A DNA stretch of 56,950 bases from Minwuia sp. (GTDB lineage: Bacteria; Pseudomonadota; Alphaproteobacteria; Minwuiales; Minwuiaceae), in NCBI GenBank assembly GCA_029213165.1, contig JARGNO010000021.1, positions 1-56,950 of the forward strand, given 5' to 3'. The stretch's first letter is position 1; each line of letters starts with the position of its first letter. A program made the position numbers and the translations under genes. Shown here piece after piece: positions 6,769 through 53,276 of the stretch. The notes under the pieces were generated by a model. The model searched no databases, was not told the DNA's origin, and worked only from the letters and a program-made list of their open reading frames with translations.

Positions 6769-6906
6769 CTCTTCCCGTCGTCCCCTTTTCCGGGCCGCTT
6801 GGGTCAGGCCGCGCATTCGTGATATGGCGCAGGGTAGACGAGATTCCAGCGCCCTGTCAGAGACCATTTCCGGTCCTGCGCGCACCCCGGATGGAGACTG
6901 TTGAGA

Positions 6907-7266
6907 ATGAGCATTGATCGTGACGCCCTGCTTGCCGCACTGGACGCCCTGGGTGGAGAGGATGAGCAGACCGTGCTGAGCGCGGCGCGCGCCGCTGCCG
7001 CCATGATGGATCAGGCCGCGCTGGAGTGGGAGGAGGTGCTGGTGGAGCGGCTGCCGGGCACTGCCGTCAGCAGCGCCCCCGCCATCGAGGTGGGCGAGGA
7101 CGACGAGTCAATCCGCAAGGCTGTCGAGGCCATGCTGGCCCGCCCCTCCCTGCATGACGGCACGCGGGAGGATCTGGAGGATTTCCTGCGCGAACTGGAG
7201 GCAGGGGAGCTGGAGCAGGAGGACCGCACCTATATCACCGCCCTCTACCAGCGACTGCAGGACTGA
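6907..7266 (+). CDS. Small acidic hypothetical protein
   Basis: I do not recognise this 119-residue protein. It is strongly acidic and Ala/Glu-rich with no membrane segment or signal peptide, and appears almost entirely helical. A hydrophilic middle (VGEDDESIRKAVEAM) is followed by a Glu-rich C-terminal part (DLEDFLRELEAGELEQEDRT). The ATG at 6907 has GGAG about ten bases upstream. It ends four bases before an alpha/beta hydrolase gene and is almost certainly cotranscribed with it. It may be an accessory or regulatory cytosolic protein, but no function can be assigned. Confidence 0.7.
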   Translation: MSIDRDALLAALDALGGEDEQTVLSAARAAAAMMDQAALEWEEVLVERLPGTAVSSAPAIEVGEDDESIRKAVEAMLARPSLHDGTREDLEDFLRELEAGELEQEDRTYITALYQRLQD

Positions 7267-7270
7267 CCCG

Positions 7271-8077: not shown

Positions 8078-8095
8078 TGCCGGGTCCAGACCCGC

Positions 8096-8929: not shown

Positions 8930-9065
8930 TGCTCTCGCGCTCCTCAAATCCGCAGTGCCGAACCTTATGCCCTCGCCCCGGCGCAGGTAAATGGTATTCA
9001 GACATGCCCGCCACCTGTCGTGTGGCGTTCCCATTGTTGCGGCAGGGTCGTAGGGTGCAAAAAAA

Positions 9066-9089
9066 TTGTAGCTCAAATGTTGTAGCTCA
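9066..9089 (+). repeat. Perfect 10-base direct repeat upstream of the acyl-CoA dehydrogenase
   Basis: TTGTAGCTCA occurs at 9066-9075 and again at 9080-9089, a 14-base period, directly before the GGGGGAGG ribosome-binding site of the gene at 9104. It is preceded by a run of seven A residues. The placement suits a repressor or activator half-site pair, or a leader element, but no regulator is identified. Confidence 0.5.
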
Positions 9090-9103
9090 GGGGGAGGCCG
9101 GTC

Positions 9104-10246
9104 ATGGCATTTGAAGTCGAACTGTCGAAGTCCGAACAGGAACTGGTTGATGCGGCGCGGGTTTTCACCGCAGAACACGTCACCCCCAATGCCGGAACCT
9201 GGGAACGTGACCGCATCTATCCGCGCGATACACAGCTGGAGGCCGCGGCCCGTGGACTTGGCGGTGTGCTGGTGCCCAAGGCAGATGGTGGACAGGGCGC
9301 AAGCTTCAGCGCCGCATGCCGTGTCTTCGAGGAACTGGCCAACGGTTGCATGGCCTTCACCTTCAGCATGGTGGTCCACAACAATTTCGCGCTCAGCCTG
9401 GCCAGCAATGGCAGTGACGCGCTGAAGCGGAAATTCCTTCCCGACCTGATCGCCTGCCGCAAGATCGGCGCCTTTCTGCTGACGGAGCCAGGCATGGGTT
9501 CGGACGCCCAGGCCGTTGCCTGCATGGCCCGCCCCGATGGGGACGGCTGGATACTGGATGGCGAGAAGGCCTGGATTTCCAGCGCCAGTCACGCTGGCGT
9601 CCTGTCGATCTACGCACAGACCGATCCTTCGAAGGGCTGGCGCGGCATCATGTGTTTCATGATCGAGGCGGAGCGCGCGGGCGTGCATCGCGTCGGTCCC
9701 TATGCCATGGCGGGTGGCCATGCGCTGGGCACCGGCGGTTTCCGGTTCGAAGGCGTGCGCCTGTCACAGGATGACGTGCTGATCCCGCAGGAAGCCGCCT
9801 TCAAGGCCGCCATGGGTGGTATCGATTCCGCCCGCTTCTTCGTCGCCGCCATGTGTACGGGCATGCTGCGCGCCGCCCTGGCCCGAAGCCTGGAATATGT
9901 CGCGGAGCGTCCCGCCTTTGGCAAGACGGTCGGCGACTTTCAGGGCATCCAGTGGATGCTGGCCGATGTTGCGACGGATCTGGAGGCAACGCGGCTGCTG
10001 ACCTACAGCGCCGCATCGCGCTGGGACGCGGGTCTGAATGCCAGCATGGAGGCCGCGCACGCCAAGAAGTTCGCCACCCGCGCCGCCCTGACCCGACTGG
10101 CCGACTGCATGCAGGTCATGGGGGCCAACGGCTTCATGGTGAACGAGGTCGCGGCCCGTCATTTCGCCTGCGCCAAGATGGCTCAGTACATGGATGGCAC
10201 GACGGAGATCCAGAACGTCGTCATCGCACGCGGTTTGCAGCGATAG
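9104..10246 (+). CDS. Acyl-CoA dehydrogenase family protein with Asp at the usual catalytic Glu position
   Basis: A 380-residue flavoprotein of the acyl-CoA dehydrogenase family. The order is an N-terminal helical domain, a middle beta domain (FLLTEPGMGSDA, then DGEKAWIS), and a C-terminal helical domain (RPAFGKTVGDFQGIQW). FAD-linked alpha,beta-dehydrogenation of a CoA thioester would be expected. In many members the catalytic base is the Glu of YEGT. Here the aligned sequence is YMDGTTEIQ, with Asp364. This could mean altered substrate geometry, another residue acting as base, or reduced activity. Ribosome binding is strong (GGGGGAGG). It is followed after 12 bases by the convergent DUF2155 gene. 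Confidence 0.9.
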   Translation: MAFEVELSKSEQELVDAARVFTAEHVTPNAGTWERDRIYPRDTQLEAAARGLGGVLVPKADGGQGASFSAACRVFEELANGCMAFTFSMVVHNNFALSLASNGSDALKRKFLPDLIACRKIGAFLLTEPGMGSDAQAVACMARPDGDGWILDGEKAWISSASHAGVLSIYAQTDPSKGWRGIMCFMIEAERAGVHRVGPYAMAGGHALGTGGFRFEGVRLSQDDVLIPQEAAFKAAMGGIDSARFFVAAMCTGMLRAALARSLEYVAERPAFGKTVGDFQGIQWMLADVATDLEATRLLTYSAASRWDAGLNASMEAAHAKKFATRAALTRLADCMQVMGANGFMVNEVAARHFACAKMAQYMDGTTEIQNVVIARGLQR

Positions 10247-10258
10247 CCCTGCCGCCGG

Positions 10259-10768
10259 TCAGTCCGCGACTGGCTCACCCTCCGGCGAAACGTCGTCCGC
10301 GTCATCGGCTTCCGGTTCCGGCTCTGGTGGCGCAGGATGACGGCAGCCAACCACCCAGACGTCATAGACCGGGTGCTCCAGCGGATTCAGTGCCGGGCTG
10401 GAGGCAATCATCCAGCCTGTGAACAGGCGCACCGCAGCGCGGGAGTCCGGTTCCTCGTCAATCTCCAGAAAGGCGAAGGTCTCCGGCGGCTCCTCCGGCG
10501 GGCGGGTCCGGCAATAGCGGACGGTGACCGTCAGGGTGCCGAAGCGGATCGGCGCGTCAACCGGCACTTCCAGATCAACCGTACGGGCCGTGACCTTGTC
10601 GAGGGCGCGCAGGATCGCCACACGGCCGGTTGCCTCCTCTGACCGGGCAGCGTCAAAGGTCTCGCCCTGCCCTTCCGTGATCAACTGGGCCTGCACGGGT
10701 CCAGCCGGAACAGCCGTCAGGCCGAGCGCGAGGCCGAAAACCGCAATCTGACATAGTCTGCTGTCCAT
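10259..10768 (-). CDS. DUF2155 domain-containing exported protein
   Basis: A 169-residue protein with an N-terminal signal peptide (about residues 1-28, ending PVQA). The DUF2155 core follows: ILRALDKVTARTVDLEVPV, FGTLTVTVRYC and RPPEEPPETFAFLEI, then FTGWMIASSPALNPLEHPVYDVW. The tail is acidic and Pro-rich. DUF2155 proteins are alphaproteobacterial periplasmic proteins of unknown function, usually near NDUFA12 and mlaD genes, as here. The start lies inside the 3' end of the methyltransferase gene, giving a 52-base same-strand overlap in another frame. The signal peptide begins exactly at this ATG, so a later start is unlikely. Confidence 0.88.
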   Translation of the reverse strand: MDSRLCQIAVFGLALGLTAVPAGPVQAQLITEGQGETFDAARSEEATGRVAILRALDKVTARTVDLEVPVDAPIRFGTLTVTVRYCRTRPPEEPPETFAFLEIDEEPDSRAAVRLFTGWMIASSPALNPLEHPVYDVWVVGCRHPAPPEPEPEADDADDVSPEGEPVAD

Positions 10769-11475
10769 CGTCCCTCACTGTCACAAAGCACCGAACGCAG
10801 CAGGTCCACGACCTCCGCCCTCAGACTGGCCCGGTCCTGAGCAGGCACCGCCGCGAAGAAGCTGTCGGCGAATGTATCCATCCATCCGCCCACGTCGGTC
10901 GGCAAGGGTGTGGGCCGCGGGATGAGTTCCGCAGAATGCACCGCAAATCCGGCCTCGCGCAGCACGGCGCCGTATTCATCCGGCGTCGGGAAGTACCAGG
11001 GGCTCAGCGCGGCACCATCAACGCCATGCCGGGCGAGCACCGCGATCAGAGCCGTCCTGATTGCGGCGACATTTCCATGCCCGCCAAATTCGGCAACAAA
11101 ACGACCGCCCGGTCGCAGCGCACGGTGAACGCCCGCGACAACCTCCGCCGGGCGCGTCATCCAGTGCAAAGCGGCATTGGAAAAGACGGCATCGAATTCA
11201 TTGCTGAAGGCCAGTGCATGGCCATCGACCACACGTGCATCCAGGCCGCGCGCCCGCGCTGCCGCAATCATGTCGGGGCCAGCATCGACACCAATCACCT
11301 GACACCCCGCGGCGACCAGTTTCTCGGTCAGTACGCCATCGCCGCAGCCGAGATCGAGGATACGCTCACCGGGTTGCGGGGCCAGCAGGTCCAGTACCGG
11401 GGTGCCCAGTACTGCGACAAAGCCCGCATGTTGCTGATATCGATCCGGTTGCCAGTCCTGGCTCTCCCGGCTCAC
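10717..11475 (-). CDS. SAM-dependent class I methyltransferase (trans-aconitate methyltransferase-like)
   Basis: A 252-residue Rossmann-fold methyltransferase. Motif I is ILDLGCGDGVLTEKL near residue 39, followed by VIGVDAGPDMIAAAR (acidic SAM-ribose contact), FDAVFSNAALHWM and LRPGGRFVAEFGG. The C-terminal region (WYFPTPDEY, then ADYVRLRF) resembles trans-aconitate 2-methyltransferase and related small-molecule enzymes. The start overlaps the mlaD stop by four bases, and the end overlaps the DUF2155 gene by 52 bases, so it sits inside a tight operon. Insertion of a methyltransferase between mlaD and DUF2155 is not the usual arrangement that I know. The substrate is unknown. Confidence 0.88.
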   Translation of the reverse strand: MSRESQDWQPDRYQQHAGFVAVLGTPVLDLLAPQPGERILDLGCGDGVLTEKLVAAGCQVIGVDAGPDMIAAARARGLDARVVDGHALAFSNEFDAVFSNAALHWMTRPAEVVAGVHRALRPGGRFVAEFGGHGNVAAIRTALIAVLARHGVDGAALSPWYFPTPDEYGAVLREAGFAVHSAELIPRPTPLPTDVGGWMDTFADSFFAAVPAQDRASLRAEVVDLLRSVLCDSEGRWTADYVRLRFSASRSA

Positions 11476-11924
11476 TGCTTGCTGCTTCCACCGGAATAGA
11501 TCGCCTGCCCCACCAGATCCATGATGTTGACCGACCCCTGTGCGAAACGGAACGAGTCCCCCGCATTCAGATTGGCCTCATCACCGCCCGGCTCGATCGA
11601 CAGGAAGGTGTCACCCAGCAGACCATCGGCCAGCACACGGATCGAGGAGTCCGCGGGAATCTTCACATCCGAGGCAATGTTGAGCCGGACCAGCGCCAGA
11701 TAGGTTGGCGATTCAAGCTCGGTCGACTTCACCGATCCGATCTTGATCCCGCTCAGGCGCACGTCAGCACCGGTGATTACACCGTTCACCTTGTCGAACT
11801 TGGCAATGAGTTCATAGCCGGAGGCCGGCGCGATATCGGCCGTGCGATAGGCAAAGATCAGGAACATTGCCGCAATGGCTATCACCACGGCCCCGATCAC
11901 GGTTTCGACGATATTGTTGGACAT
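11472..11924 (-). CDS. mlaD: MlaD-family outer-membrane lipid asymmetry protein
   Basis: A 150-residue MCE-domain protein. One membrane anchor lies at about residues 8-26, then a single MCE domain (about 38-115) with the characteristic VNGVITGADVRLSGIKIG and SSIRVLADGLLGDTFLSIEPGG. MlaD hexamers form the periplasmic lipid channel of the MlaFEDB importer, which returns phospholipids from the outer membrane. The partner mlaE and mlaF genes are not in this window. In alphaproteobacteria a mlaD copy beside NDUFA12 is common. It overlaps the downstream methyltransferase start by four bases. Confidence 0.92.
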   Translation of the reverse strand: MSNNIVETVIGAVVIAIAAMFLIFAYRTADIAPASGYELIAKFDKVNGVITGADVRLSGIKIGSVKSTELESPTYLALVRLNIASDVKIPADSSIRVLADGLLGDTFLSIEPGGDEANLNAGDSFRFAQGSVNIMDLVGQAIYSGGSSKQ

Positions 11925-36617: not shown

Positions 36618-37133
36618 GTGGGTCGAGCGCTGGGATTGCTGGTCTTTCTGGCCGCGACATGGCTCCTGTTGTCGGGCATCTACGATCATTCCCTGCTCCT
36701 CTGGCTGGGCGCGGCTTCCTGCCTGCTGTGTGTGCTGATCGCCTGGCGCATGGACGTGGTGGATCACGAAGGCACGCCACTGGAACTGGGCTGGCGGATC
36801 ATCGCCTACTGGCCGTGGCTGTTCATCGAGATCGTGAAGGCGAATATCGACGTCATTCGCCGCCTGCTCCGCGCAGATCCGGACATCTCACCCACCCTTG
36901 TCCGCTCCCGGACAATGCAGCGCACGGACCTGGGTCGGGTCATCTATGCCAACTCGATCACCCTGACTCCGGGGACCCTGTCCATCGACATCGATGACGG
37001 CAAGGGCATCCTGGTGCATGCGCTGTCGCTGGAGGGGGCTGAGGGCGTGCTGAGTGATGACATGAACCGGCGCTGTGCCGGGCTGGAGAGTGACCGGCTG
37101 CATCGCCGCGCGCAGGAGGACCAGACGCCATGA
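36618..37133 (+). CDS. mrpE: Mrp-type cation/proton antiporter subunit E
   Basis: A 171-residue MrpE/MnhE-like subunit, with two or three N-terminal membrane helices followed by a cytoplasmic domain. The conserved YWPWLFIEIVKANIDVIRRL and a later ANSITLTPGTLSID are diagnostic. The start is taken as GTG at 36618 because AGGAGGGG precedes it at ideal spacing, whereas the upstream frame extends into non-conserved sequence. It opens the ten-gene antiporter operon and overlaps mrpF by four bases. Confidence 0.92.
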   Translation: MGRALGLLVFLAATWLLLSGIYDHSLLLWLGAASCLLCVLIAWRMDVVDHEGTPLELGWRIIAYWPWLFIEIVKANIDVIRRLLRADPDISPTLVRSRTMQRTDLGRVIYANSITLTPGTLSIDIDDGKGILVHALSLEGAEGVLSDDMNRRCAGLESDRLHRRAQEDQTP

Positions 37134-37405
37134 TCTACGGGGTCGCCGCATTGGGGCTGCTCGTCGCGATGCTGTTCGCCATCATCCGCGCCCTGCTGGG
37201 TCCCACCCTGATGGACCGTGTCATGGCCGCGAACATGTTCGGCACCAAGACCGTGCTGCTGCTGGCCGTTCTCGGCTATCTGGCGGGAAGGCCGGAGTTC
37301 CTGGACCTGGCCCTTGTCTACGCCCTGATGAACTTCATCAGCATCATCGCCGTGCTGAAGTACTTCCGTTATCGCGACCTCGGCCAGTCCCGGGTACGTT
37401 CGTGA
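37130..37405 (+). CDS. mrpF: Mrp-type antiporter subunit F
   Basis: A 91-residue subunit with three membrane helices. Conserved LGPTLMDRVMAANMFGTKTV and YALMNFISIIAVLKYF place it in the MrpF/MnhF family. It stabilises the Mrp membrane arm. It overlaps mrpE by four bases and mrpG by one. Confidence 0.93.
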   Translation: MIYGVAALGLLVAMLFAIIRALLGPTLMDRVMAANMFGTKTVLLLAVLGYLAGRPEFLDLALVYALMNFISIIAVLKYFRYRDLGQSRVRS

Positions 37406-37746
37406 TGGACTGGCCTGTCATCGTATCCGGCGTGCTGGTGATATCCGGCGCATTGCTGACGATTGTCGGTGCTTACGGCACCCTGCGCCTTCCCGACATC
37501 TACACCCGCCTGCACGCGGCCAGCATCACCGACACGCTGGCGACCTTTCTGATTCTGGCTGGACTGGCCGTGCCGTCGCTGGTCGCCGGGGAATGGCTGA
37601 TTGCGGTCAAGCTGTTGTTCGTACTGATATTCCTCTGGTTCACCAGCCCAATTGCTTCCTATTCGATCGGTCACGCGGCTTTCTTCACGGCGCAGAAGCC
37701 AAGGCTGGACCATGACCTCACCGATGGTGAGGGAGGCACGGCATGA
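37405..37746 (+). CDS. mrpG: Mrp-type antiporter subunit G
   Basis: A 113-residue subunit with three membrane helices. GAYGTLRLPDIYTRLHAASI is the MrpG/MnhG signature, followed by LFVLIFLWFTSPIASYSIG. The frame is open from 37075, but the ATG at 37405 overlapping the mrpF stop is the natural start; a GTG at 37402 is just upstream. The C-terminus is hydrophilic. It overlaps the DUF4040 gene by four bases. Confidence 0.93.
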   Translation: MDWPVIVSGVLVISGALLTIVGAYGTLRLPDIYTRLHAASITDTLATFLILAGLAVPSLVAGEWLIAVKLLFVLIFLWFTSPIASYSIGHAAFFTAQKPRLDHDLTDGEGGTA

Positions 37747-38339
37747 GCATCGGAGACTGGGAAGCCCTGATCAATGTCGCCCTGCTGGGTCTGCTGCTGG
37801 TGGTGACCTTTGGCATCATCCGGCTGCGCAACCTGTTTGGCGTCGTGATGCTGGCCGGCATCTACAGCCTGTTGATGGCAATGGTCTTCACCCTGCTGGA
37901 TGCGGTTGATGTGGCGTTCACGGAGGCTGCGGTGGGTGCCGGTGTCTCCACCATCCTGTCGCTGGGCACCCTGGCGCTGATCGACAGCCGACGGGAGAAG
38001 ATCCCCTTCCGGTTCCAGTTCACCCCGTTGCTGGTTGCACTGGTCACCGGCGGTGTCCTGCTGTGGGGCATGCAGGACATGCCCGCCGTCGGCGCGGCGG
38101 ACGCGCCGAACCAGGTGCATGTTGCGCCCTATTACATCCAGCAGACGCCCGTTGATATCGACGTGCCGAATATCGTGACCGCCGTCCTCGCCAGCTATCG
38201 TGGCTTTGATACGCTCGGCGAGGTCACGGTGATCTTCACCGCCGGGATCGGTGTGATGATGCTGCTGTCGTCGATGCCGGTCATCGGGGCACGGCGGCGC
38301 AGAAGGCGCGATGACGACGGACCGGAGGACGACGCCTGA
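37743..38339 (+). CDS. DUF4040/MbhD-E-like antiporter subunit (equivalent of the MrpA C-terminus)
   Basis: A 198-residue membrane protein. The N-terminal part (about residues 10-75) is a DUF4040 unit with LRNLFGVVMLAGIYSLLMAM and AFTEAAVGAGVST, homologous to the C-terminal helices of MrpA and to MbhD. After a soluble stretch (about 100-150), YRGFDTLGEVTVIFTAGIGV matches the MbhE-like last part of MrpA. A basic tail RRRRRR follows. It thus supplies the MrpA C-terminal segment as a separate protein. It overlaps mrpG by four bases and the next gene by one. Confidence 0.9.
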   Translation: MSIGDWEALINVALLGLLLVVTFGIIRLRNLFGVVMLAGIYSLLMAMVFTLLDAVDVAFTEAAVGAGVSTILSLGTLALIDSRREKIPFRFQFTPLLVALVTGGVLLWGMQDMPAVGAADAPNQVHVAPYYIQQTPVDIDVPNIVTAVLASYRGFDTLGEVTVIFTAGIGVMMLLSSMPVIGARRRRRRDDDGPEDDA

Positions 38340-38827
38340 TGATCGAGCATCTGGTCCCGCGCATCCTCGCCAAACTGCTGATACCGTTCATTCTCCTGTT
38401 CGGACTCTATGTCCAGTTCCATGGCGATTTCGGCCCCGGTGGCGGCTTTCAGGCCGGTGTGATCTTTGCCGCCGGCATCATTCTCTACGCGCTGATCTAC
38501 GGCCTCGACCGCGCCCGCAGCGTCGTCACGCCGGGCCTGGTGTCATTTCTGGTCGCACTCGGCCTGCTGATCTATGCCGGTGTCGGCGTTGCCACCATGC
38601 TGCTGGGTGCCGAGTTCCTGAACTATGGCGCACTGGACAGCCATGACCCGGTGCATGGCCAGCATCTTGGAATCCTGATCATCGAATTCGGGGTTGGTAC
38701 GACCGTTGCCGCCGTCATGATCACGATCTTCTACCAGTTCGCCGGACGCCTGAAGATCACACGCGAGCTGGAGGCGGATGACGAGGATGACGCGGATGAG
38801 GAACAGGTCACGGAGTCGCCGCGATGA
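38339..38827 (+). CDS. mrpB: Mrp-type antiporter subunit B (MnhB domain)
   Basis: A 162-residue membrane protein of the MnhB family. The conserved start is RILAKLLIPFILLFGLYVQF, then HGDFGPGGGFQAGVIFAAG and VGVATMLLGAEFLNY. The cytoplasmic C-terminal tail is highly acidic. It corresponds to MrpB and to archaeal MbhF. It starts on the one-base overlap with the DUF4040 gene and overlaps mrpC by four bases. Confidence 0.92.
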   Translation: MIEHLVPRILAKLLIPFILLFGLYVQFHGDFGPGGGFQAGVIFAAGIILYALIYGLDRARSVVTPGLVSFLVALGLLIYAGVGVATMLLGAEFLNYGALDSHDPVHGQHLGILIIEFGVGTTVAAVMITIFYQFAGRLKITRELEADDEDDADEEQVTESPR

Positions 38828-39213
38828 TGGAGTGGCTCGGTCAGTTCAATTACTACGTCTTCGCGATCCTGATGACGGCCGGAATCTATATCGCGATGAG
38901 CCGCGGCAATCTGGTGAAGAAGGTCGTCGGCCTGAACATCTTCCAGGCCAGTGTCTTCCTGCTCTACATCAGTTCCGGCAAGATCTGGGGCGGCACCGCG
39001 CCGATCCTGGGGGATGGTCTGACCCAACCCATTTCCAATCCGCTGCCGCATGTCCTGATCCTGACCGCCATTGTCGTAGGCGTCGCCACGACCTCCATCG
39101 GTCTGGCCCTGATCGTGCGCATCAAGGAAGCCTATGACACCGTCGAGGAAGACGAGATTGCCGAGGCCGAGGCCCTCTACGAGGAAGAACTGATGCGGGC
39201 GGAAGAGGCATGA
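38824..39213 (+). CDS. mrpC: Mrp-type antiporter subunit C (NuoK-like)
   Basis: A 129-residue NuoK-like subunit with three membrane helices. AGIYIAMSRGNLVKKVVGLN and then LPHVLILTAIVVGVATTSI fit the MrpC/NuoK proton-channel family. An acidic cytoplasmic tail (EEDEIAEAEALYEEE) extends past the last helix. It overlaps both neighbours by four bases. Confidence 0.92.
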   Translation: MMEWLGQFNYYVFAILMTAGIYIAMSRGNLVKKVVGLNIFQASVFLLYISSGKIWGGTAPILGDGLTQPISNPLPHVLILTAIVVGVATTSIGLALIVRIKEAYDTVEEDEIAEAEALYEEELMRAEEA

Positions 39214-40721
39214 GCACCGCCGCCAATGCCGGTTTCAGCCTGCTGGCAAACCTGCCCGCCCTGCAGGTCGTGGTGCCGATGGTCGCCGCCCCGATCTGCA
39301 CCTTCCTGCGGTTCCGCAACGGACCCTGGGCCTTTGCCCTGCTGGTCAGCGCCGCCACGTTCTGGATTGCCGCGACACTGCTGATGCAGGTGCTGAGCGG
39401 TGGCGTGATCTCCTACGAGATGGGTGGCTGGGCACCCCCCGTCGGCATCGAATACCGGGTCGACGAGATCAATGCCTTCGTGCTGCTGATCGTCAGCGGC
39501 ATATCGCTGATCGCCCTGCCCTACGCCCTGCGGTCGGTGGAGCGGGAAGTACCGCGCGACAAGCATCACCTGTTCTATGCGGCCTGGCTGTTGTGCCTTT
39601 GCGGAATGCTGGGCATCACCATCACCGGCGATGCCTTCAACATCTTTGTCTTCCTGGAGATTTCCTCCCTCTCCACCTACATGCTGCTCGCCTCCGGTCG
39701 GGATCCACGGGCACTGACTGCCGCGTTCCAGTACCTGGTGCTGGGGACCCTTGGCGCGACTTTCATCCTGATCGGCGTCGGACTGCTGTACATCATGACC
39801 GGCACCCTCAACATCGCCGATCTCGCGGATCGTCTCGGACCGGTCTCCGACACCACTTCCGTCCGGGCCGCCGCCGCATTCCTGACAGTCGGCATCGCAC
39901 TGAAGTTCGCGCTGTTCCCCGCGCATTTCTGGCTGCCGAACGGTTATACCTACAGCCCCAGCGCCGTCGGCGTGTTCCTGTCGGCAACGGCAACCAAGGT
40001 CTCGATCTACGTTCTGTTGCGGTTCCAGTTCACCGTCTTCGGTGACATTCCGGCATTTGCGGAGCTGGATTTCGCGACCCTGCTGCTGCCCTTCGCGGTC
40101 GTGGCGTTCCTTGTCGGTTCGACCGTCGCGATCTTCCAGACAGACCTGAAACGCCTGCTTGCCTGGTCGTCCATCGCGCAGATCGGCTACATGGTCGCCG
40201 GTATCGGTCTTGGCGGTGTCGACGGCCTGACCGCCGGTATCGTGCATCTGTTCAACCATGCGATCACCAAGGCGGCGCTGTTCATGGCCGCAGGCGCGAT
40301 CTTCCTGCGCGTCGGCTCGATGCATATCGACAAGCTGGCCGGGATCGGCAAGACCATGCCACTGACCACGCTGGCCTTCGTGCTGGCGGGCCTCAGCTTG
40401 ATCGGTGTACCGACCACCGTCGGCTTCATATCCAAGTGGTACCTGATCCTGGCGGCACTGCAGCACGGCGCGATCGGCTACGCGATCGCGGCACTTGTGC
40501 TGGCCAGTTCGCTGCTTGCCGTGATCTATGTCTGGCGCATCGTGGAAGTGGCCTATTTCCGTGAACCTGCGACGGACCGGGAGGTCGCGGAAGCCCCACT
40601 GTCGATGCTGCTGCCGCTGTGGGCGCTGACCATCGGCTGCTTCTACTTCGGGCTGGAAACCGGTTACTCCGTTGATATTGCCCGTGCCGCCGCGCAGTCG
40701 CTGCTGGGGATCACGCCATGA
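39210..40721 (+). CDS. mrpD: Mrp-type antiporter subunit D (first antiporter-like subunit)
   Basis: A 503-residue NuoN/MrpD-family subunit with about fourteen membrane helices. The proton-path residues are kept: E150 in FVFLEISSLSTYM, K232 in ALKFALFPAHFWLP (with the following WLPNGYTYSP) and K409 in GFISKWYLIL. It would couple proton and Na+/K+ movement through the membrane. It is the closest of the three to classical MrpD. It overlaps mrpC and the next gene by four bases each. Confidence 0.93.
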   Translation: MSTAANAGFSLLANLPALQVVVPMVAAPICTFLRFRNGPWAFALLVSAATFWIAATLLMQVLSGGVISYEMGGWAPPVGIEYRVDEINAFVLLIVSGISLIALPYALRSVEREVPRDKHHLFYAAWLLCLCGMLGITITGDAFNIFVFLEISSLSTYMLLASGRDPRALTAAFQYLVLGTLGATFILIGVGLLYIMTGTLNIADLADRLGPVSDTTSVRAAAAFLTVGIALKFALFPAHFWLPNGYTYSPSAVGVFLSATATKVSIYVLLRFQFTVFGDIPAFAELDFATLLLPFAVVAFLVGSTVAIFQTDLKRLLAWSSIAQIGYMVAGIGLGGVDGLTAGIVHLFNHAITKAALFMAAGAIFLRVGSMHIDKLAGIGKTMPLTTLAFVLAGLSLIGVPTTVGFISKWYLILAALQHGAIGYAIAALVLASSLLAVIYVWRIVEVAYFREPATDREVAEAPLSMLLPLWALTIGCFYFGLETGYSVDIARAAAQSLLGITP

Positions 40722-42196
40722 GCATCGAGACCCATATCCAGCTTGCCCTGCTGATCCCAATCATCGGACTGGTCGGCATTGTCCTGACCGGGCGCAGTCC
40801 GAACCTGCGGGAGGCGGTGACACTGATCACCGCGACGGCGAACGCGATCAATGTCTGGTCGATCTTTCCCGCGATCCAGGCAGGTGCCCGCCCCTCCGTG
40901 ACCCTGTTCGAACTGCTGCCGGGCCTGACCATCAACTTCACGGTGGAACCGCTGGGGATGATGTTCGCCGCCATCGCATCGACGCTGTGGATCGTCAATT
41001 CGATCTATTCCATCGGCTACATGCGCGGCAACAAGGAGACCAACCAGACCAGGTTCTATGCCTGTTTCGCCCTGTCGATCAGCGCTGCCATCGGCATAGC
41101 CTTCGCGGGCAACCTTCTGACGCTGTTCATCTTCTACGAGATACTGACCCTTTCGACCTATCCGCTGGTCACCCACAAGGGCAATGAGGACGCAAAGCGC
41201 GGTGGCCGGACCTATCTGGGCATCCTGATCGCCACCTCAATCGGCCTGCAACTGCCTGCGATCATCTGGACCTGGAACCTGACCGGGACACTGGACTTCG
41301 TGCCGGGCGGGACCCTGGCAGGCAAGGTACAGGGGCTGTCTGCGGGACTGTTGCTGGCGCTGTACATGTATGGTGTCGGCAAGGCGGCGCTGATGCCGAT
41401 CCACAAGTGGCTGCCGGCGGCCATGGTTGCGCCTACGCCGGTATCCGCACTGCTGCATGCGGTGGCGGTGGTGAAGGCCGGTGTCTTCACCGTCATCAAG
41501 ATCATTGTCTATGTCTTCGGGCTGGAGCTGATCAGCACGGAGAGCGCGACCAACTGGCTGATCTATGTTGCGGCGATCACCCTGACACTGGCCAGCCTGA
41601 TCGCCATGAACCAGGACAACCTGAAGCGGCGACTGGCCTACTCGACCATCAGTCAGCTTTCCTATGTCATCCTGGGCGCGGCACTTGGCACGGCGATGGG
41701 TGTCGTCGGCGGCGGCATGCACATCGCGATGCATGCGGCGGGCAAGATCACCCTGTTCTTCTGCGCCGGCGCGATCTACGTGGCGCTGCACAAGACCGAG
41801 ATATCCGACATGAAGGGCATCGGCCGGATCATGCCGGTGACCATGTTCTGTTTCATGATCGGCGCGCTGTCGGTCATCGGCATTCCGCCACTGGGCGGGT
41901 CATGGTCGAAGTTCCTGCTGATGGTCGGTGCCGCCGACGCGGGATTCCAGTTCATCATCGGTGTGCTGATCCTCAGTTCACTGCTGAATGTCGCCTATCT
42001 GATGCCGATCCCGCTGCGTGGCTTCTTGCTGAAGCCAGCAGGAGCGGGTGACGGGCCGGTGCGGGTTCAGGAGGCTCCTCTGGCCTGTGTGATCGCCATC
42101 TGCATCACGGCGACACTGACATTCGTGCTGTTCTTCCTGGCGCAGGACATCTTCGACTTCCTGCTGCCCATCACCGTTGCGGGAGGGGGCCAATGA
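40718..42196 (+). CDS. Second antiporter-like subunit (NuoM/MrpD-type)
   Basis: A 492-residue proton-antiporter membrane protein. Key residues are E141 in FIFYEILTLSTYPLV, K222 in GVGKAALMPIHKWLP and K398 in GSWSKFLLMVG. The stretch APTPVSALLHAVAVVKAG is closer to NuoM/NuoL than to classical MrpD. About fourteen helices are predicted. It overlaps the preceding subunit by four bases and the small 97-residue gene by four. It may replace the NuoL-like half missing from the split MrpA. Confidence 0.92.
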   Translation: MSIETHIQLALLIPIIGLVGIVLTGRSPNLREAVTLITATANAINVWSIFPAIQAGARPSVTLFELLPGLTINFTVEPLGMMFAAIASTLWIVNSIYSIGYMRGNKETNQTRFYACFALSISAAIGIAFAGNLLTLFIFYEILTLSTYPLVTHKGNEDAKRGGRTYLGILIATSIGLQLPAIIWTWNLTGTLDFVPGGTLAGKVQGLSAGLLLALYMYGVGKAALMPIHKWLPAAMVAPTPVSALLHAVAVVKAGVFTVIKIIVYVFGLELISTESATNWLIYVAAITLTLASLIAMNQDNLKRRLAYSTISQLSYVILGAALGTAMGVVGGGMHIAMHAAGKITLFFCAGAIYVALHKTEISDMKGIGRIMPVTMFCFMIGALSVIGIPPLGGSWSKFLLMVGAADAGFQFIIGVLILSSLLNVAYLMPIPLRGFLLKPAGAGDGPVRVQEAPLACVIAICITATLTFVLFFLAQDIFDFLLPITVAGGGQ

Positions 42197-42486
42197 GCGC
42201 GTCACCCGAATTTCGTGAACCGGAGAGATACGCCCTCGACCGCCCGGCGGTGGTGCGGCGCATCTATCACGTGCTGATCGTCGTCTGCGTGCTGCTGGGG
42301 CTGGCGGATGTCGCGGACCTGATCTGGCACATCTATCACAAGCACGGAATCTATGACGTCGAGTACCTGCCCAACTTCTACGGGTTCTACGGCCTGCTGG
42401 GCTGCATCTTCCTGGTGCTGTCGGCAAAGCAACTGCGCAAGGTCGTGATGCGGGACGAGGATTATTACGACGATGATGTGGACTGA
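42193..42486 (+). CDS. Small conserved-position membrane protein of the antiporter operon (unknown)
   Basis: A 97-residue protein that I cannot assign to a family. It has a basic N-terminus (RPAVVRRIYH), two predicted membrane helices (about 27-45 and 65-82), a soluble loop with HIYHKHGIYDVEYLPN and an acidic tail (RDEDYYDDDVD). It is completely embedded between two antiporter-like subunits, overlapping one by four bases and the next by 14. An accessory subunit of the complex is the simplest reading. Confidence 0.8.
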   Translation: MSASPEFREPERYALDRPAVVRRIYHVLIVVCVLLGLADVADLIWHIYHKHGIYDVEYLPNFYGFYGLLGCIFLVLSAKQLRKVVMRDEDYYDDDVD

Positions 42487-44173
42487 GCTGCCGCCAGGAC
42501 TGATCCTGCTGCTCGGTGGCGTCCTCGCCGCCGTGCTGCCTCACCATGGCCGCAAGGCCCTGATGCTGGTGTTGCCGTTCGTCGGCTTCTGGCAGCTGAT
42601 CGACGTGCCGAACGGCGACCATGCGGTCGTGACCCTGTTCGGGGCGGAACTGGTCGGCAGCCGCATCGACAGCCTGTCGCTGGTCTGGGGCTACATCTTC
42701 TACATCGCCGCGCTGATCGCCGGAATCTTCCACCTGCATGTGCGTGACCGGATGCAGGACGTGGCGGCGCTGACCTACATGGGCTCCGCAGTCGGCGCGA
42801 TCTTCGCCGGTGACCTGATCAGCCTGTTCATCTACTGGGAACTGACGGCGGTCACTTCCGTCTTCCTGATCTTCGCCAACCGCACCAACGCCAGTTTCCG
42901 CGCCGGTATCCGCTATCTGATCGTGCAGATCGCATCCGGCGTGCTGCTGTTGGGCGGGTTGATCATCCATTGGCGCGGCACGGGATCGGTGGAGTTCGGG
43001 AACCTCGGCCTGGATGCGCCGGGGGGGCTGCTGATCTTCCTTGGCTTCGGTATCAAGGCCGCCTTCCCGCTGCTGCACAACTGGCTGCAGGATTCCTATC
43101 CGCAGGCCACTGTGACCGGCACGGTCTTCCTGTCATCCTTCACCACCAAGATGGCGATCTACACCCTGGCGCGGGGCTTCCCCGGGCAGGAGGAACTGAT
43201 CTGGATCGGCGCCGCCATGACGGCCTTCCCGATCTTCTATGCGGTGATCGAGAACGACCTGCGCAAGGTGCTGGCCTACAGCCTGAACAACCAGCTCGGC
43301 TACATGGTCGTCGGTGTCGGCATCGGCACGGAACTGGCGCTGAATGGTGCTGCCGCCCATGCCTTCACGCATATCCTCTACAAGGGGCTGCTGTTCATGT
43401 CGATGGGCGCGGTCCTGTACCGCGTCGGTACCATCAAGGGCTCGGAGCTTGGTGGCCTCTACAAGTCGATGCCGTGGACTGCCGGATTCTGCATCGTCGG
43501 CGCGGCCTCCATCTCCGCCTTCCCGCTGTTCTCCGGCTTCATCTCCAAGTCGCTGATCATCACTGCGGCGGCCGAGGAAGGCTACTGGTTCGTCTGGCTG
43601 ATCCTGCTGTTCGCCTCCGCCGGTGTGTTCCACCATTCGGGCATCAAGATCCCCTATTTCGCTTTCTTCGCCTGGCCACATCAGGCGCAGAAGACCTGCC
43701 GGGAAGCCCCCCTGAACATGTTGCTGGCCATGGGTATCGCGGCCGTGTTCTGCGTCGGCATCGGCGTCTTCCCCAGCTATCTCTACGCCATCCTGCCCTA
43801 TCAGACTGACTTCGTGCCCTACACCGGATCGCACGTGGTGACACAGTTGCAACTGCTGCTGTTCTCCGCCCTCGCCTTCGCCTGGCTGATGCGGACGGGG
43901 CTGTACCCGCCGGAACTGAAATCCACGGTACTGGACTTCGACTGGGTCTATCGCCGCGCCCTGCACCGGGTCTGGCGCGCGACCGTGGAATGGGGCAGCG
44001 AAACCTCAGGCGCGCTGACTGGCGGCATGCGGGGCTGGGTGAACAATGTCATCGGCGTTGCCGGTCGTCTCGGCCGCCCCGGCGGGCTGGTCAGCCAGAC
44101 ATCGAAGCCCGGCACGGGCGTGCTCTGGCTCACCGCGATGCTGGGCCTCTACCTGCTGGTCTTCGGTCTCTGA
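42473..44173 (+). CDS. Third antiporter-like subunit (Na+/H+ antiporter subunit D family)
   Basis: A 566-residue antiporter subunit. E123 in FIYWELTAVTSVFL, K195 in GFGIKAAFPLLHNWLQDSYP and K359 in SGFISKSLIITA keep the proton-path residues. About fourteen helices are followed by a C-terminal extension with an amphipathic segment (WVYRRALHRVWRATVEWGS) and a last helix, recalling the lateral helix of NuoL-type proteins. The ATG at 42473 or 42476 could start it. It ends the operon and is convergent with the photolyase gene. Confidence 0.92.
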   Translation: MMWTELPPGLILLLGGVLAAVLPHHGRKALMLVLPFVGFWQLIDVPNGDHAVVTLFGAELVGSRIDSLSLVWGYIFYIAALIAGIFHLHVRDRMQDVAALTYMGSAVGAIFAGDLISLFIYWELTAVTSVFLIFANRTNASFRAGIRYLIVQIASGVLLLGGLIIHWRGTGSVEFGNLGLDAPGGLLIFLGFGIKAAFPLLHNWLQDSYPQATVTGTVFLSSFTTKMAIYTLARGFPGQEELIWIGAAMTAFPIFYAVIENDLRKVLAYSLNNQLGYMVVGVGIGTELALNGAAAHAFTHILYKGLLFMSMGAVLYRVGTIKGSELGGLYKSMPWTAGFCIVGAASISAFPLFSGFISKSLIITAAAEEGYWFVWLILLFASAGVFHHSGIKIPYFAFFAWPHQAQKTCREAPLNMLLAMGIAAVFCVGIGVFPSYLYAILPYQTDFVPYTGSHVVTQLQLLLFSALAFAWLMRTGLYPPELKSTVLDFDWVYRRALHRVWRATVEWGSETSGALTGGMRGWVNNVIGVAGRLGRPGGLVSQTSKPGTGVLWLTAMLGLYLLVFGL

Positions 44174-44192: not shown

Positions 44193-45728
44193 TCACAGGG
44201 TGTCGAGACCGTCCAGGATCGTCTTCGCACTCTCACGGTAGGCGGCACGCGTTTCCGGCTTCATCCGGTCCCAGGTGCTGTGCACCGGCTTCAGGCGCGG
44301 GTTGCTGCGCAAGGTCTCTCCGTTGCGCGCCAGAAAGTCCCAGTAGAGTGGGTTGAAGGGACAGGCCCCCGCCCCGGACTTCCGTTTCACATCATAGCTG
44401 CAATCCCCGCAGTGGTCCGACATGCGGTTGATATAGCTGCCACTGGCCGCATAGGGCTTGGAACCGAGCAGGCCACCATCCGCGAACTGGCTCATGCCCA
44501 GTGTGTTCGGCAGTTCAACCCATTCGAAGGCATCGGCGTAGACCGACAGATACCACTCATGCACCTGGCGCGGGTTGATCCCGGACAGCAGGGCAAAGGT
44601 GCCCGTGACCATCAGGCGCTGGATATGATGCGCATAGGCCTGACGTTTCGTCTGGTCGACCACGGCCCGCACGCACGCCATGCCCGTGTCACCGGTCCAG
44701 TAGAACGCAGGCAGGTCCCGGTCTGCCTGGAGATGGTTCATCCCCGCATAGTCCGGCATCTTCAGCCAGTAGATGCCGCGCACATATTCCCGCCACCCGA
44801 TGATCTGGCGAATGAAACCCTCCGCCGCATTCAGGGGCACATCCCCGTCCTGCCAGGCCTTCTCCACCCTTTGGCAGAGGTCGAGCGGGTCAAGCAGGCC
44901 AATGTTGATATAGGGGGAGAGCACGGAGTGATACAGGAAGTCCTCCCCCCGCAGCATGGCATCCTGAAAGTCGCCGAAGCGGGGCAAGGCCTCGGCCAGG
45001 AAGTGGTCGCGGGCCTGTTCGGCCTTCGCCCGGGTAACGGCGAACCAGAACGGCTGCAGGTCGCCGAAGCCTTCGGGAAAGCGGTCAGCAACAAGGTCCA
45101 GCACGGCACGTGTCGTGTCGTCGGGACGGGACTGGCGCGGGCGGGGCATGAAAAGGTCCGTGCCTGCGGGCTTGCGATTCTCCTGGTCGAAATTCCATCG
45201 CCCGCCGACCGGCTTGTCGCCATCCATCAGCAGACCCGTCTTCCGTCGCATCTCCCGATAGAAATATTCCATGCGGAGTTGCTTGCGGCCCTCGGCCCAG
45301 TCGGCGAACGCCTCTCGCGAACACAGAAAGCGATTGTCGGCCAGAACATCGACCGGCAGGCCAAGCGTGTCCGGCCAGCCTTCCACCATGCGTGAAACAC
45401 GCCATTCGCCCGGTTCGGTCAGACAGATCCGATCCGGCGCATGACGCTCCACGGCGCGCCTGACCTCCCCCGTGAAGCTGCCGCTGTTGCCACTGTCGTC
45501 CAGCCGCACGTAATCGACCTGCCAGCCCGCGGCGGTCAGTTCGGTCGCGAAGTGGCGCATGGCAGAGAGGATGAAGGCGATCTTCTTGCGATGATGGGGA
45601 ACGTAGGTCGTCTCCTCCGCCACCTCGACCATCAGCACCACATCCCGCGCCCTGTCCGCCGCCGCCAGGGCAGGCAGGCGGGGGGTGAGCTGGTCGCCCA
45701 TGATCAGGATCAGATTCTTCTTGGCCAT
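44193..45728 (-). CDS. FeS-type bacterial cryptochrome/photolyase (PhrB-like)
   Basis: A 511-residue member of the FeS-BCP (prokaryotic 6-4 photolyase) group. An N-terminal alpha/beta antenna domain (LILIMGDQLTPRLPAL) precedes the helical FAD domain. Cys352, Cys440, Cys443 and Cys456 match the four 4Fe-4S ligands of Agrobacterium PhrB (350, 438, 441, 454) in spacing. PhrB repairs (6-4) photoproducts with light; repair is the expected role. FAD-binding motifs such as GMSQFADGG and RQIIGWREYVRG are present. The frame extends to 45923, but the ATG at 45728 gives the PhrB-like N-terminus. Confidence 0.94.
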   Translation of the reverse strand: MAKKNLILIMGDQLTPRLPALAAADRARDVVLMVEVAEETTYVPHHRKKIAFILSAMRHFATELTAAGWQVDYVRLDDSGNSGSFTGEVRRAVERHAPDRICLTEPGEWRVSRMVEGWPDTLGLPVDVLADNRFLCSREAFADWAEGRKQLRMEYFYREMRRKTGLLMDGDKPVGGRWNFDQENRKPAGTDLFMPRPRQSRPDDTTRAVLDLVADRFPEGFGDLQPFWFAVTRAKAEQARDHFLAEALPRFGDFQDAMLRGEDFLYHSVLSPYINIGLLDPLDLCQRVEKAWQDGDVPLNAAEGFIRQIIGWREYVRGIYWLKMPDYAGMNHLQADRDLPAFYWTGDTGMACVRAVVDQTKRQAYAHHIQRLMVTGTFALLSGINPRQVHEWYLSVYADAFEWVELPNTLGMSQFADGGLLGSKPYAASGSYINRMSDHCGDCSYDVKRKSGAGACPFNPLYWDFLARNGETLRSNPRLKPVHSTWDRMKPETRAAYRESAKTILDGLDTL

Positions 45729-45864
45729 GAAACACCCTTCCCGGATTGCTGCCCTGATACGTCGGTCAGGATTGTGCGGGTCACTCCGGCAAAGGCCGGG
45801 TTGGCATTTCCGTCTGGCCGGGACAACAATGCCTCTCTCATCGACAGATTCAGAAAGCTCTGCC

Positions 45865-46968
45865 ATGCAACTGCCCGACGGAATCCGCACCCGAGACCTG
45901 CCGGGCATCAATGGCCTCGACATGCGGGTGCTGGAGGCGGGTGATCCCGCAGACCCGCTGATCCTGCTGCTGCACGGCTTTCCGGAACTGGCCTACAGCT
46001 GGCGCAAGGTCATGCTGCCGCTCGCGGCACTGGGCTATCACGTCGTTGCCCCGGACCAACGCGGTTACGGTGGCACGACCGGCTGGGATGACCGCTATGA
46101 TGGTGACGTCCGCAGCTTCCGCATGATGAACCTGGCGCGGGATATCGTCTGTCTCGTGGCGGCACTGGAGCGCATGCATGTTGCCGCCCTTGTCGGCCAT
46201 GACTTCGGCTCCCCTGTTGCGGCGCATTGTGCCCTGCTGCGACCGGACATCTTCCGCGCCGTCGCCCTGATGAGTGCGCCCTATGGCGGCCCACCGGCAC
46301 CCGACCGGGGCCAGGCGAAGCCGGACCTGGCAGCTGCGCTGGCTGCACTTGATCGCCCCCGCAAGCACTACCAGTGGTATTATTCGGAGCCTCAGGCGGA
46401 CCGTGACATGCGGGACGCGCCACAGGGACTGCATGACTTCCTGCGCGCCTACTATCACGCCAAGAGTGCCGACTGGCCCGGCAATCGCCCCTTTCCCCTG
46501 ACCGGCTGGACCGCCACGGAACTGGCGCGACTGCCGACCTATTACGTCATGGATCATGCCGCGACGATGCCCGAGACGGTTGCGCCGGAGATGCCGACAC
46601 CGGCACAGGTCGCGGGATGTGACTGGCTGCCTGACCACGAACTTGCCGTCTATGCCGAGACCTATGCCCGCACCGGCTTTCAGGGTGGACTGAACTGGTA
46701 CCGCTGCGCCATTGACCCGGACATTGGTGGCGAGATGGAACTGTTTCACGGACGCACCATCGACGTTCCCAGCACCTTCATCGCCGGCGCTTCCGACTGG
46801 GGTATCCAGCAATCTCCTGGCGCACTGGATGCGATGCAGGGCCCGTGCGTGACCAGCGATTTCCGGGGTCTGCACCTGATTGATGGTGCCGGGCACTGGG
46901 TGCAGCAGGAACAGCCCATTGCGGTTGTCGATGCCCTGGCCGGTTTCCTGGGCGGCCTGAAGCCATGA
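45865..46968 (+). CDS. Alpha/beta hydrolase (epoxide hydrolase-like)
   Basis: A 367-residue alpha/beta hydrolase. HGFPELAYSWRKVM contains the HGxP oxyanion motif, and the nucleophile is likely the Asp of VGHDFGSPVAAH, as in epoxide and haloalkane hydrolases. DQRGYGGT follows strand 4, and the His is in DGAGHWVQQEQP near the C-terminus. These fit epoxide hydrolase more than ester hydrolase. The ATG at 45865 follows AGAAAG; the longer frame upstream is antisense to the photolyase gene. It ends overlapping the PNPOx gene by four bases. Confidence 0.88.
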   Translation: MQLPDGIRTRDLPGINGLDMRVLEAGDPADPLILLLHGFPELAYSWRKVMLPLAALGYHVVAPDQRGYGGTTGWDDRYDGDVRSFRMMNLARDIVCLVAALERMHVAALVGHDFGSPVAAHCALLRPDIFRAVALMSAPYGGPPAPDRGQAKPDLAAALAALDRPRKHYQWYYSEPQADRDMRDAPQGLHDFLRAYYHAKSADWPGNRPFPLTGWTATELARLPTYYVMDHAATMPETVAPEMPTPAQVAGCDWLPDHELAVYAETYARTGFQGGLNWYRCAIDPDIGGEMELFHGRTIDVPSTFIAGASDWGIQQSPGALDAMQGPCVTSDFRGLHLIDGAGHWVQQEQPIAVVDALAGFLGGLKP

Positions 46969-51845: not shown

Positions 51846-53276
51846 ATGCTCTATGCAAATAGTGTGGCGTTATCGCGCCGCAAGCTTCTGTCGGTTCTCA
51901 TGACCAGCATGGGAATGGGGCTCATGCCCGCGTCCCTGGGAGCAGCCCCCCGCAACAGGCCGGTCCGTGAGTTTCACCTGCGCGCAGCCGCGAACAGGGC
52001 CGTTCCCGACGCACGACTCTCTGGTCCGACTGATGTCTGGACGTACAACAACAGTGTCCCCGGCCCGGAACTGCGCGTTCGTCAGGGTGACCGGGTTCGC
52101 GTGCGGGTAACCAATGGTCTAGCAGAGCCTACCACCGTCCACTGGCATGGCGTTCGGGTGCCTAACGCAATGGATGGTGTCCCCCACGTTACCCAGGCCC
52201 CCATCCCACCAGACGGGAATTTTGTCTATGAGTTTGATGCCGTCGATGCCGGCACCTACTGGTATCATCCGCACTATCGCAGCTACGAACAGGTCGGTCG
52301 CGGCCTGTATGGACCGCTGATAGTCGAAGAACCGGATCCAGTCCGCGCAGACCGCGACCTCACTTGGATACTGGATGACTGGCGACTGGGACCGGATGGC
52401 CTGATCCGTGACGATTTCGGCAACCGGCACGACATGGCCCACAACGGAAGGGTCGGAAACACCGTCACGATCAACGGCCGCCCGCCAGCCGGCCTTTCGG
52501 TTCGTGGTGGGGAGCGTATTCGCCTTCGACTGGTAAATGCCGCCAACGCGCGGATATTCTCCTTGGATTTTGAAGGACACGCGCCAACCATCATTGCTCT
52601 CGACGGCCAACCCGTCAGTCCGCACTCACCGAAGGACGGGCTGGTTCTTCTTGGTCCGGCCATGCGGGCAGATATCATCCTGGACATGCACGGTGAACCC
52701 GGTAGCCGTTTCGCAATCACGGACCGATTCTACAGAGGCCTAGAATACCAGCTTTCCGAATTCAACTATGCGTCCACTCCACTCAGGTCAGAAGCACCGG
52801 ACTGGAAAATGGATCTTCCGCCGAACCCGATCCCCGAACCATTGACAAGGGGGGCCAGCAGACACGAGGTCGTCTTCAATGGCGGAATGATGGGCAGAGG
52901 CATGGGAGCCGGAAACTCCGGTGGCATGATGAACATGATGAGGCGTTCAGGAATCTGGTCCGTCAACGGCATGTCCGTAGAGGGGCATTTCATGGAGCCC
53001 TTCCTGATGCTGGATCGAGACCGCAGCCATGTGATTTCCATGACAAACGCAACTGCCTGGCACCATCCGATTCATCTGCACGGCCATTCGTTCAGGGTCT
53101 TGTCACGAGACGGTATTCCAACGCGACACCAGGAATGGCAGGACACCGTGATGATGGCTCCACGAGAGAAGATCGACATCGCGCTGGTCGCCGACAATCC
53201 CGGCGACTGGATGTTTCACTGCCACATTCTCGAACATCAGGCCGCGGGAATGATGGGCGTCATTCGTGTCAACTGA
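51846..53276 (+). CDS. Multicopper oxidase (CueO/CopA-like), Tat-exported
   Basis: A 476-residue periplasmic laccase-type oxidase. SRRKLL at about residues 10-15 is a twin-arginine export signal, so it is folded with copper before transport. Copper ligands are complete: H99-W-H101, H141-P-H143, H407-P-x-H410-L-H412, and H458-C459-H460 with H464 and M469 (axial). Three cupredoxin domains are present. A Met/Gly-rich patch (MMGRGMGAGNSGGMMNMMRR) resembles the Cu(I)-binding segments of CueO and PcoA. It oxidises Cu(I) in the periplasm to protect against copper. The gene uses more AGA/AGG codons than nearby genes. Confidence 0.93.
   Translation: MLYANSVALSRRKLLSVLMTSMGMGLMPASLGAAPRNRPVREFHLRAAANRAVPDARLSGPTDVWTYNNSVPGPELRVRQGDRVRVRVTNGLAEPTTVHWHGVRVPNAMDGVPHVTQAPIPPDGNFVYEFDAVDAGTYWYHPHYRSYEQVGRGLYGPLIVEEPDPVRADRDLTWILDDWRLGPDGLIRDDFGNRHDMAHNGRVGNTVTINGRPPAGLSVRGGERIRLRLVNAANARIFSLDFEGHAPTIIALDGQPVSPHSPKDGLVLLGPAMRADIILDMHGEPGSRFAITDRFYRGLEYQLSEFNYASTPLRSEAPDWKMDLPPNPIPEPLTRGASRHEVVFNGGMMGRGMGAGNSGGMMNMMRRSGIWSVNGMSVEGHFMEPFLMLDRDRSHVISMTNATAWHHPIHLHGHSFRVLSRDGIPTRHQEWQDTVMMAPREKIDIALVADNPGDWMFHCHILEHQAAGMMGVIRVN

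Follow-up and report, generated by a model that had tools for sequence, protein, structure and literature searches.

In the 56,950-nucleotide stretch of Minwuia sp. contig JARGNO010000021.1 that we analyzed as a whole (the window), ten overlapping open reading frames (ORFs) at 36618-44173 on the + strand form an operon that we read, with a probability of about 0.75, as encoding a group 3 Mrp-type monovalent cation/proton antiporter; judging from their sequences, the products would assemble into one ten-subunit complex with three antiporter-like pumps (D1, D2, and D3), of which D3 would be the distal one. The genes occur in the order E-F-G-(MbhD+MbhE)-B-C-D1-D2-S-D3, and each neighboring pair overlaps by 1 to 14 bases, as an earlier note on this DNA had described. 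Pfam and NCBIfam identified homology to Mrp-type subunits for 9 of the 10 genes, and the Pfam family Proton_antipo_M was matched by three of the proteins (D1, D2, and D3). Among the matches listed (the best 25 for D1 and D2), no NCBIfam model exceeded its curated cut-off for E, F, D1, or D2. The features are as follows (TM, transmembrane helix; pLDDT, predicted local distance difference test score; MBS, membrane-bound sulfur reductase).

36618-37133, + strand: MrpE (MNHE); Pfam PF01899, E 3.3e-29; GTG start with AGGAGG directly upstream.
37130-37405, + strand: MrpF; Pfam PF04066 (MrpF_PhaF), E 7.8e-18; Asn35 at 37232-37234.
37405-37746, + strand: MrpG; Pfam PF03334 (PhaG_MnhG_YufB), E 4.6e-22; TIGR01300 over cut-off; alternative GTG start possible at 37402.
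37743-38339, + strand: MbhD+MbhE-like protein; Pfam MbhD and MbhE; NF009159 over cut-off; counterpart of the C-terminal part of MrpA (TM17-21).
38339-38827, + strand: MrpB (MnhB); Pfam PF04039, E 4.3e-28; NF009162 over cut-off; PGGGF motif kept.
38824-39213, + strand: MrpC / NuoK-like protein; Pfam PF00420 (Oxidored_q2), E 1.6e-19; two NCBIfam C models over cut-off; best solved relative MbsG, then MbhG and MrpC.
39210-40721, + strand: D1, MrpD-type antiporter-like subunit; Pfam PF00361 (Proton_antipo_M), E 1.2e-59; best solved relative 6u8y_H of MBS.
40718-42196, + strand: D2, second antiporter-like subunit; Pfam PF00361, E 8.7e-55; separate deep group in the tree.
42193-42486, + strand: S, 97-aa (amino acid) two-helix membrane protein between D2 and D3; no match in Pfam or NCBIfam.
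42473-44173, + strand: D3, third antiporter-like subunit, counterpart of the MrpA N-terminal part and NuoL, with lateral helix; NF009310, 709 bits (cut-off 564).
43826-44167, + strand, within D3: TM15 (452-475), amphipathic lateral helix (490-533), and TM16 (547-565); from the AlphaFold model (block pLDDT 44-69) and the length comparison.

The three pumps have separate ancestries. Besides the window, our tree (65 rows, 479 columns) took in 11 of the 80 related loci described below, Nuo and Hyf proteins, and eight canonical Mrp operons. Each of the three pumps formed a group of its own, with 100/100 support, which rules out one recent duplication as their source; the earlier note had staked its reading on the three not being a single recent paralog group, and they are not. 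D1 was placed with MrpD and NuoN (support 93/96), and D2 and D3 fell on the other side of the tree with MrpA, NuoL, NuoM, and the Escherichia coli Hyf proteins, where the deeper order is not resolved. Proteins of the Sinorhizobium green complex I branch first inside the D2 and D3 groups; in green complex I, two MrpD-like proteins stand in place of NuoL (PMC9040806, PMC7415380; here and below, statements from the literature are limited to the accessible parts of the cited papers).

All three pumps carry the glutamate and lysine residues of the proton path at the positions already listed in the earlier note: E150/K232/K409 in D1, E141/K222/K398 in D2, and E123/K195/K359 in D3. Each also has a TM8-type lysine (263, 253, and 226, respectively). 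In the alignments, the TM5 Glu and the TM7, TM8, and TM12 Lys were kept in nearly all rows of the three subunits. With the window row included, the four positions were conserved in 81/81 rows for D3 and in every row with a letter there for D1 (67 to 70 of 71); for D2 (78 rows), they were conserved in all lettered rows except for one Q at 141 and one R at 398, and the alignment has an unreadable X at 222 and at 253. These and later row counts take in near relatives, such that rows are not independent, and at least one genome probably enters twice (L038 and L261, equal in chromosome length).

MrpA is split in this operon rather than missing: its C-terminal part is the MbhD/E-like gene, and its N-terminal, lateral-helix part has its counterpart in D3. 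The MbhD/E-like protein aligns to the MrpA C-terminus of 7d3u, 7qru, and 6z16, and also to MbhD and MbhE. The AlphaFold model of D3 (mean pLDDT 80.4) shows a 14-helix core followed by TM15, an amphipathic lateral helix, and TM16, with low confidence in the lateral part (pLDDT 44-69); this architecture is like that of NuoL and of the N-terminal part of MrpA. Using Foldseek with the D3 model, we found MrpA and NuoL chains as the top five matches. VIA-align gave a Z of 45.2 against NuoL 8e9g (root-mean-square deviation 4.8, 524 residues aligned) and a tied Z of 45.2, for the core only (435 aligned), against the MrpD chain of 7qru. Because this value is common to both, we rejected fold matches alone as a means of telling MrpA and NuoL from MrpD-type chains. 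The earlier note correctly stated that the operon holds no full-length MrpA gene, but its wording missed that the protein is divided between two genes.

We compared the length of the TM15-TM16 segment, counted as the residues between the two helices, which were placed by mean hydropathy; the comparison was made without the D3 of L048 and L070 (cut), the NuoL of L196 (stops), MrpA rows of <700 residues, and NuoL rows of <600 residues. The segment measured 48-53 residues in MrpA (n=32), 63-76 in D3 (median 74, n=91; exactly 74 in 78/91), 81-84 in NuoL (n=30), and 92 in the D3 of green complex I (n=4). A second set and alignment gave 68-79 for D3 (74 in 25/39) and 90 for green D3 (three rows, with the Sinorhizobium one counted again). 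The lateral helix of NuoL passes two neighbors. That of MrpA extends from the distal end past one neighbor to the vicinity of MrpD (PMC9568556), and a 26-residue insertion has been linked to one more pump (PMC9040806). The D3 segment exceeds that of MrpA by 26 residues, equal to this insertion. As support and not as proof, this length is consistent with a three-pump, complex I-like arm that has D3 at its tip; such an arm had been proposed in the earlier note, and it also agrees with the tree and the D3 model.

In the arrangement that we infer, E, F, G, B, C, and the MbhD/E-like protein would form the cation-translocating base. The MrpD-like D1 would adjoin C, D2 would be the second pump, and D3 would be the distal, MrpA-N/NuoL-like pump, whose lateral helix would run back along D2 and D1 and clamp the arm. 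Protons entering via the three pumps would drive the export of a cation (sodium or potassium), with a higher predicted ratio of H+ to cation than that of a two-pump Mrp.

The small subunit S is conserved in its alignment (A1, 50 rows). We identified it in 11 of 249 genomes, all 11 of which have D3 over the cut-off, and read it beside D3 in four further D3 genomes (G253, G267, G276, and G280). The structure predicted for S has helices at residues 18-48 and 62-84, with middling confidence (mean pLDDT 69, predicted template modeling score 0.38). A profile search of the PDB returned a single chance match (E 0.6), and on that ground S was rejected as a member of a known fold. The operon, the rhizobial green complex I, and the stand-alone trios have D2, S, and D3 in common; S therefore probably binds D2 or D3, and its most likely position would be the D2-D3 junction. 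Its conservation and its constant place between D2 and D3 in the loci read make S an obvious gene to target. Loci L254-L257 are divergent: with a class profile, S scored 17-38 bits and D3 391-488; the ten-gene order is kept in all of them, and B was not separately found in L257.

To place the operon among its relatives, we took the best 80 of 293 related stretches from one D3 scan of genome contigs; gene order was obtained by sorting ORFs by stop codon, with searches by Mrp-type profiles only. The sources were Alpha-, Beta-, and Gammaproteobacteria, together with a few records titled Planctomycetota, Phycisphaerales, Thermoanaerobaculales, and Deltaproteobacteria. The ten-gene order was held in 63/80 loci (55 plain, 7 with DE and B in one ORF, and 1 with D2 as two ORFs), including L070, in which D3 is cut at the 3' end. 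Another 16 loci were cut by a contig end, and one (L067) was a lone D2-S-D3 within a long contig; no other gene order was seen among the best 80. Across 385 alphaproteobacterial genomes, 87 had a D3-family match above the curated cut-off; for the phylum, the figure was 15 of 299. We picked 40 further alphaproteobacterial loci (38 genomes) from 98 listed matches in 95 genomes, deliberately including odd ones; 38 were Mrp-type in the same order (9 without a separate B), and two were green complex I operons.

Several points weigh against the reading of the operon as a single three-pump antiporter. The 93/96 support for the side of D1 in the tree is not starred, and the tree was rooted at the midpoint for drawing purposes only. 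For 7qru, 7d3u, and 6z16, the chain listed by VIA-align is MrpD (Z 43.0-45.2, core only) and not MrpA. The length rule is not strictly additive, because NuoL (84) and D3 (74) differ by 10 residues, though both would span two neighbors, and because green D3 is only about 16-18 residues longer than operon D3. Two last points, the replacement of MrpF Asp35, a residue required in the Mrp of Anoxybacillus flavithermus, and the occurrence of D2-S-D3 apart from the base, each bear on a rival explanation.

The first rival is that the cation path has been remodeled, such that the exchanger is no longer adapted to Na+ along the known route and its ion or coupling differs (K+, or mainly H+); we consider this unlikely. 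MrpF position 35 lies on the proposed Na+ path, and it is Asn in the window and in 102/103 rows, with Ser in the remaining one, versus Asp in 5/5 solved F chains (Mrp, MBS, and membrane-bound hydrogenase, MBH) and in 8/8 canonical proteobacterial MrpF (of the 32 canonical loci, only these 8 had F near enough to be read). Similarly, where H40 would lie in MrpC, 105/105 rows here have F, Y, or I, versus N or H in 32/32 canonical MrpC. Position 35 of MrpF has been termed invariably conserved, and a D35L mutant of A. flavithermus Mrp was inactive; however, changes to E or N, although highly detrimental with E. coli expression, were not so in Bacillus subtilis itself (PMC7419157). The remaining residues of the A. 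flavithermus path also speak against this rival, as they are present in the window and largely kept across rows: the MbhD glutamate (65/65), RGFDTxGE (61/65), PGGGF (58/58 separate B rows), and the TM5 Glu of MrpD (D1 Glu150; 67/67 rows with a letter), along with Asp29 of MrpF (99/103). The MrpC histidines alone say little, since canonical proteobacterial MrpC is without H37 in 32/32 and without H40 in 30/32; loss of both was therefore dropped as a mark of the class, and only the polar-to-hydrophobic change at position 40 remains. With MrpF 35 and MrpC 40 changed against a background of otherwise conserved cation-path residues, the group 3 antiporter that we favor may differ in its ion or in the affinity for it.

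The second rival, which we rate a little lower than the first, is that the operon encodes two complexes: a seven-subunit Mrp (E-F-G-DE-B-C-D1) and, apart from it, a D2-S-D3 transporter with a function of its own. The lone D2-S-D3 sets are in its favor. In L067, such a set at 8205-11695 lies beside TRAP-transporter-type genes; that genome has a single MrpF match, on contig C104, with one antiporter-like match, and two such matches on C88, which is presumably the contig of the trio, and the base and the D2-S-D3 cassette thus seem to be encoded apart. In L136 (G081 contig 27, 16000-32000), a lone D2-S-D3 at 5751-9313 lies among flagellar/chemotaxis genes (FliM, FlgE, FlgD, CheW-type, and FliK), and the genome has two further ten-gene-type operons elsewhere, one of them cut at the contig start. 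Conversely, the seven-gene base stands alone in Pyrococcus furiosus (PMC8415708). Together, these cases mean that co-assembly of the ten products, however probable it may appear, is not proven. The setting of the trio in green complex I argues the other way. On the Sinorhizobium meliloti plasmid, the order is nuoJ, nuoK, D2, S, D3, nuoM, nuoN, nuoA-G, and the same order was found in three genomes of one genus; based on the tree and gene order, this trio is orthologous to D2-S-D3 of the operon, and it replaces NuoL between nuoK and nuoM. Moreover, the extra 26 residues of the D3 lateral segment are expected if D3 reaches past D2 to one more pump, and the ten genes stay together in most of the 80 loci. 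The single ten-subunit antiporter remains our preferred reading.

It is very improbable that a redox module encoded elsewhere docks on the arm to give a respiratory complex of the MBH, MBS, or complex I kind: the gene order is MBH-like and D2-S-D3 does occur in complex I, but the neighbors of the operon are cold-shock-domain and photolyase-related genes on the other strand, and in the 38 Mrp-type loci, for which Nuo and Hyf proteins were among the queries, none of these came out as a best match on the operon strand (the queries did not extend to hydrogenase catalytic genes).

A broader proposal, possible but on balance doubtful, is that the operon represents a widespread three-pump Mrp clade, in which a seven-gene base would be combined with an exchangeable D2-S-D3 cassette, able to stand alone and transferred at some time between Mrp and complex I. 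This clade would have a remodeled cation path (MrpF Asp35 to Asn, MrpC 40 hydrophobic), a dedicated and so far undescribed subunit S joining the cassette, and an ion or stoichiometry unlike that of the two-pump Mrp.

The ten-gene arrangement is common, and its family is a known one: published accounts of group 3 Mrp cover it. Group 3 has been described as having no mrpA and mrpD only, sometimes in several copies (PMC8415708), and as irregular in order, with clusters of two mrpD listed (PMC5703873); the order MrpEFGBBCDD is also in print (PMC4287430). The operon agrees in having no full-length mrpA, three mrpD-like (PF00361) proteins, and mrpB, C, E, F, and G. With such operons already published, the suggestion in the earlier note of a possibly distinct complex is not supported. 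Its comparison with the Mbh order fared better, as the first seven genes match the stand-alone P. furiosus mrpEFGBB'CD (PMC8415708), which likewise has E, F, G, B, C, and D without a full-length mrpA, as stated for P. furiosus and for the group; P. furiosus Mrp has one pump only, versus three here. Extra mrpD-like genes at the end, as here, are described for 'Ca. Nitrospira alkalitolerans', whose group 3 Mrp has two NuoM/NuoL-like genes after mrpD (PMC7784846), and for Verruconatronum alginivorum, for which a 2026 genome paper gives two orders, Mnh/MrpEFGBCD1D2D3 (text) and MrpABCD1D2D3EFG (table, 11 locus tags) (PMC13274419). The latter text comes close to a description of this arrangement as ordinary Mrp, which the earlier note had allowed would count against it, though the order in the table differs. 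Set beside the operon by these descriptions only, neither system is mentioned, in the accessible parts of the two papers, as having a small subunit between the second and third pumps.

Canonical Mrp of groups 1 and 2 has all seven kinds of part that have counterparts here; it differs in its two pumps, its lateral segment of 48-53 residues, its Asp at MrpF 35, and its one-protein MrpA with core, lateral helix, and C-terminal domain, in place of which the operon has D3 and the MbhD/E part as separate genes. Green complex I shares the D2-S-D3 trio, but has it between nuoJK and nuoMN with nuoA-G and with the longer TM15-TM16 segment in D3; the window trio follows D1 and is not within a nuo operon, and the NuoL/M/N homologs of the host lie on contig C69. 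In MBH and MBS of Pyrococcus, the gene order of the Mrp part is as here; D1 and C are closest to MBS chains among solved structures, and the best sequence match of D3 is MBS chain X. The operon differs from both in its three pumps and in having no adjoining hydrogenase or sulfur-reductase genes, and its membership in MBH or MBS was rejected because no redox genes adjoin it. The 2M complex I of Nitrospira and Complex_I_3 of Manganitrophaceae have extra pumps with a longer lateral helix, as here (PMC9040806); unlike the operon complex, they are redox-driven. The two-helix S and the class-wide MrpF Asn appear to be the least described features. Literature searches, which left most subscription papers uncovered, turned up no description of S (which has no name to search by), of the MrpF Asn (at which no search was aimed), or of an Mrp complex whose lateral helix is lengthened. 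For complex I, Mrp, and MBH alike, it is still being asked how proton movement is coupled between neighboring antiporter-like subunits; in a redox-free three-pump complex with a matched lateral helix and a cassette shared with complex I, the effect of an extra pump on the H+ to cation ratio would be measurable without electron transfer.

The operon ends at D3, because the flanking genes on both sides, which encode a cold-shock-domain protein and a photolyase-related protein, are on the opposite strand. Neither neighbor is a hydrogenase gene, in line with the earlier note, which had said that none follow, and no sulfur-reductase gene follows the Mrp part. In the host genome (4.1 Mb, 120 contigs), three further Proton_antipo_M proteins are encoded on contig C69, with NuoL, M, and N as their best E. 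coli matches. The genome had no match to MrpA (TIGR00940) at E 1e-150 or 1e-130 and none to NhaA; three Na_H_Exchanger proteins were found. Directly downstream of D3 and convergent with the operon, a deoxyribodipyrimidine photolyase-related protein (Pfam DPRP) is encoded at 44193-45923 on the - strand. Farther along the window, a multicopper oxidase with all three Pfam Cu-oxidase domains is encoded at 51846-53276 on the + strand.

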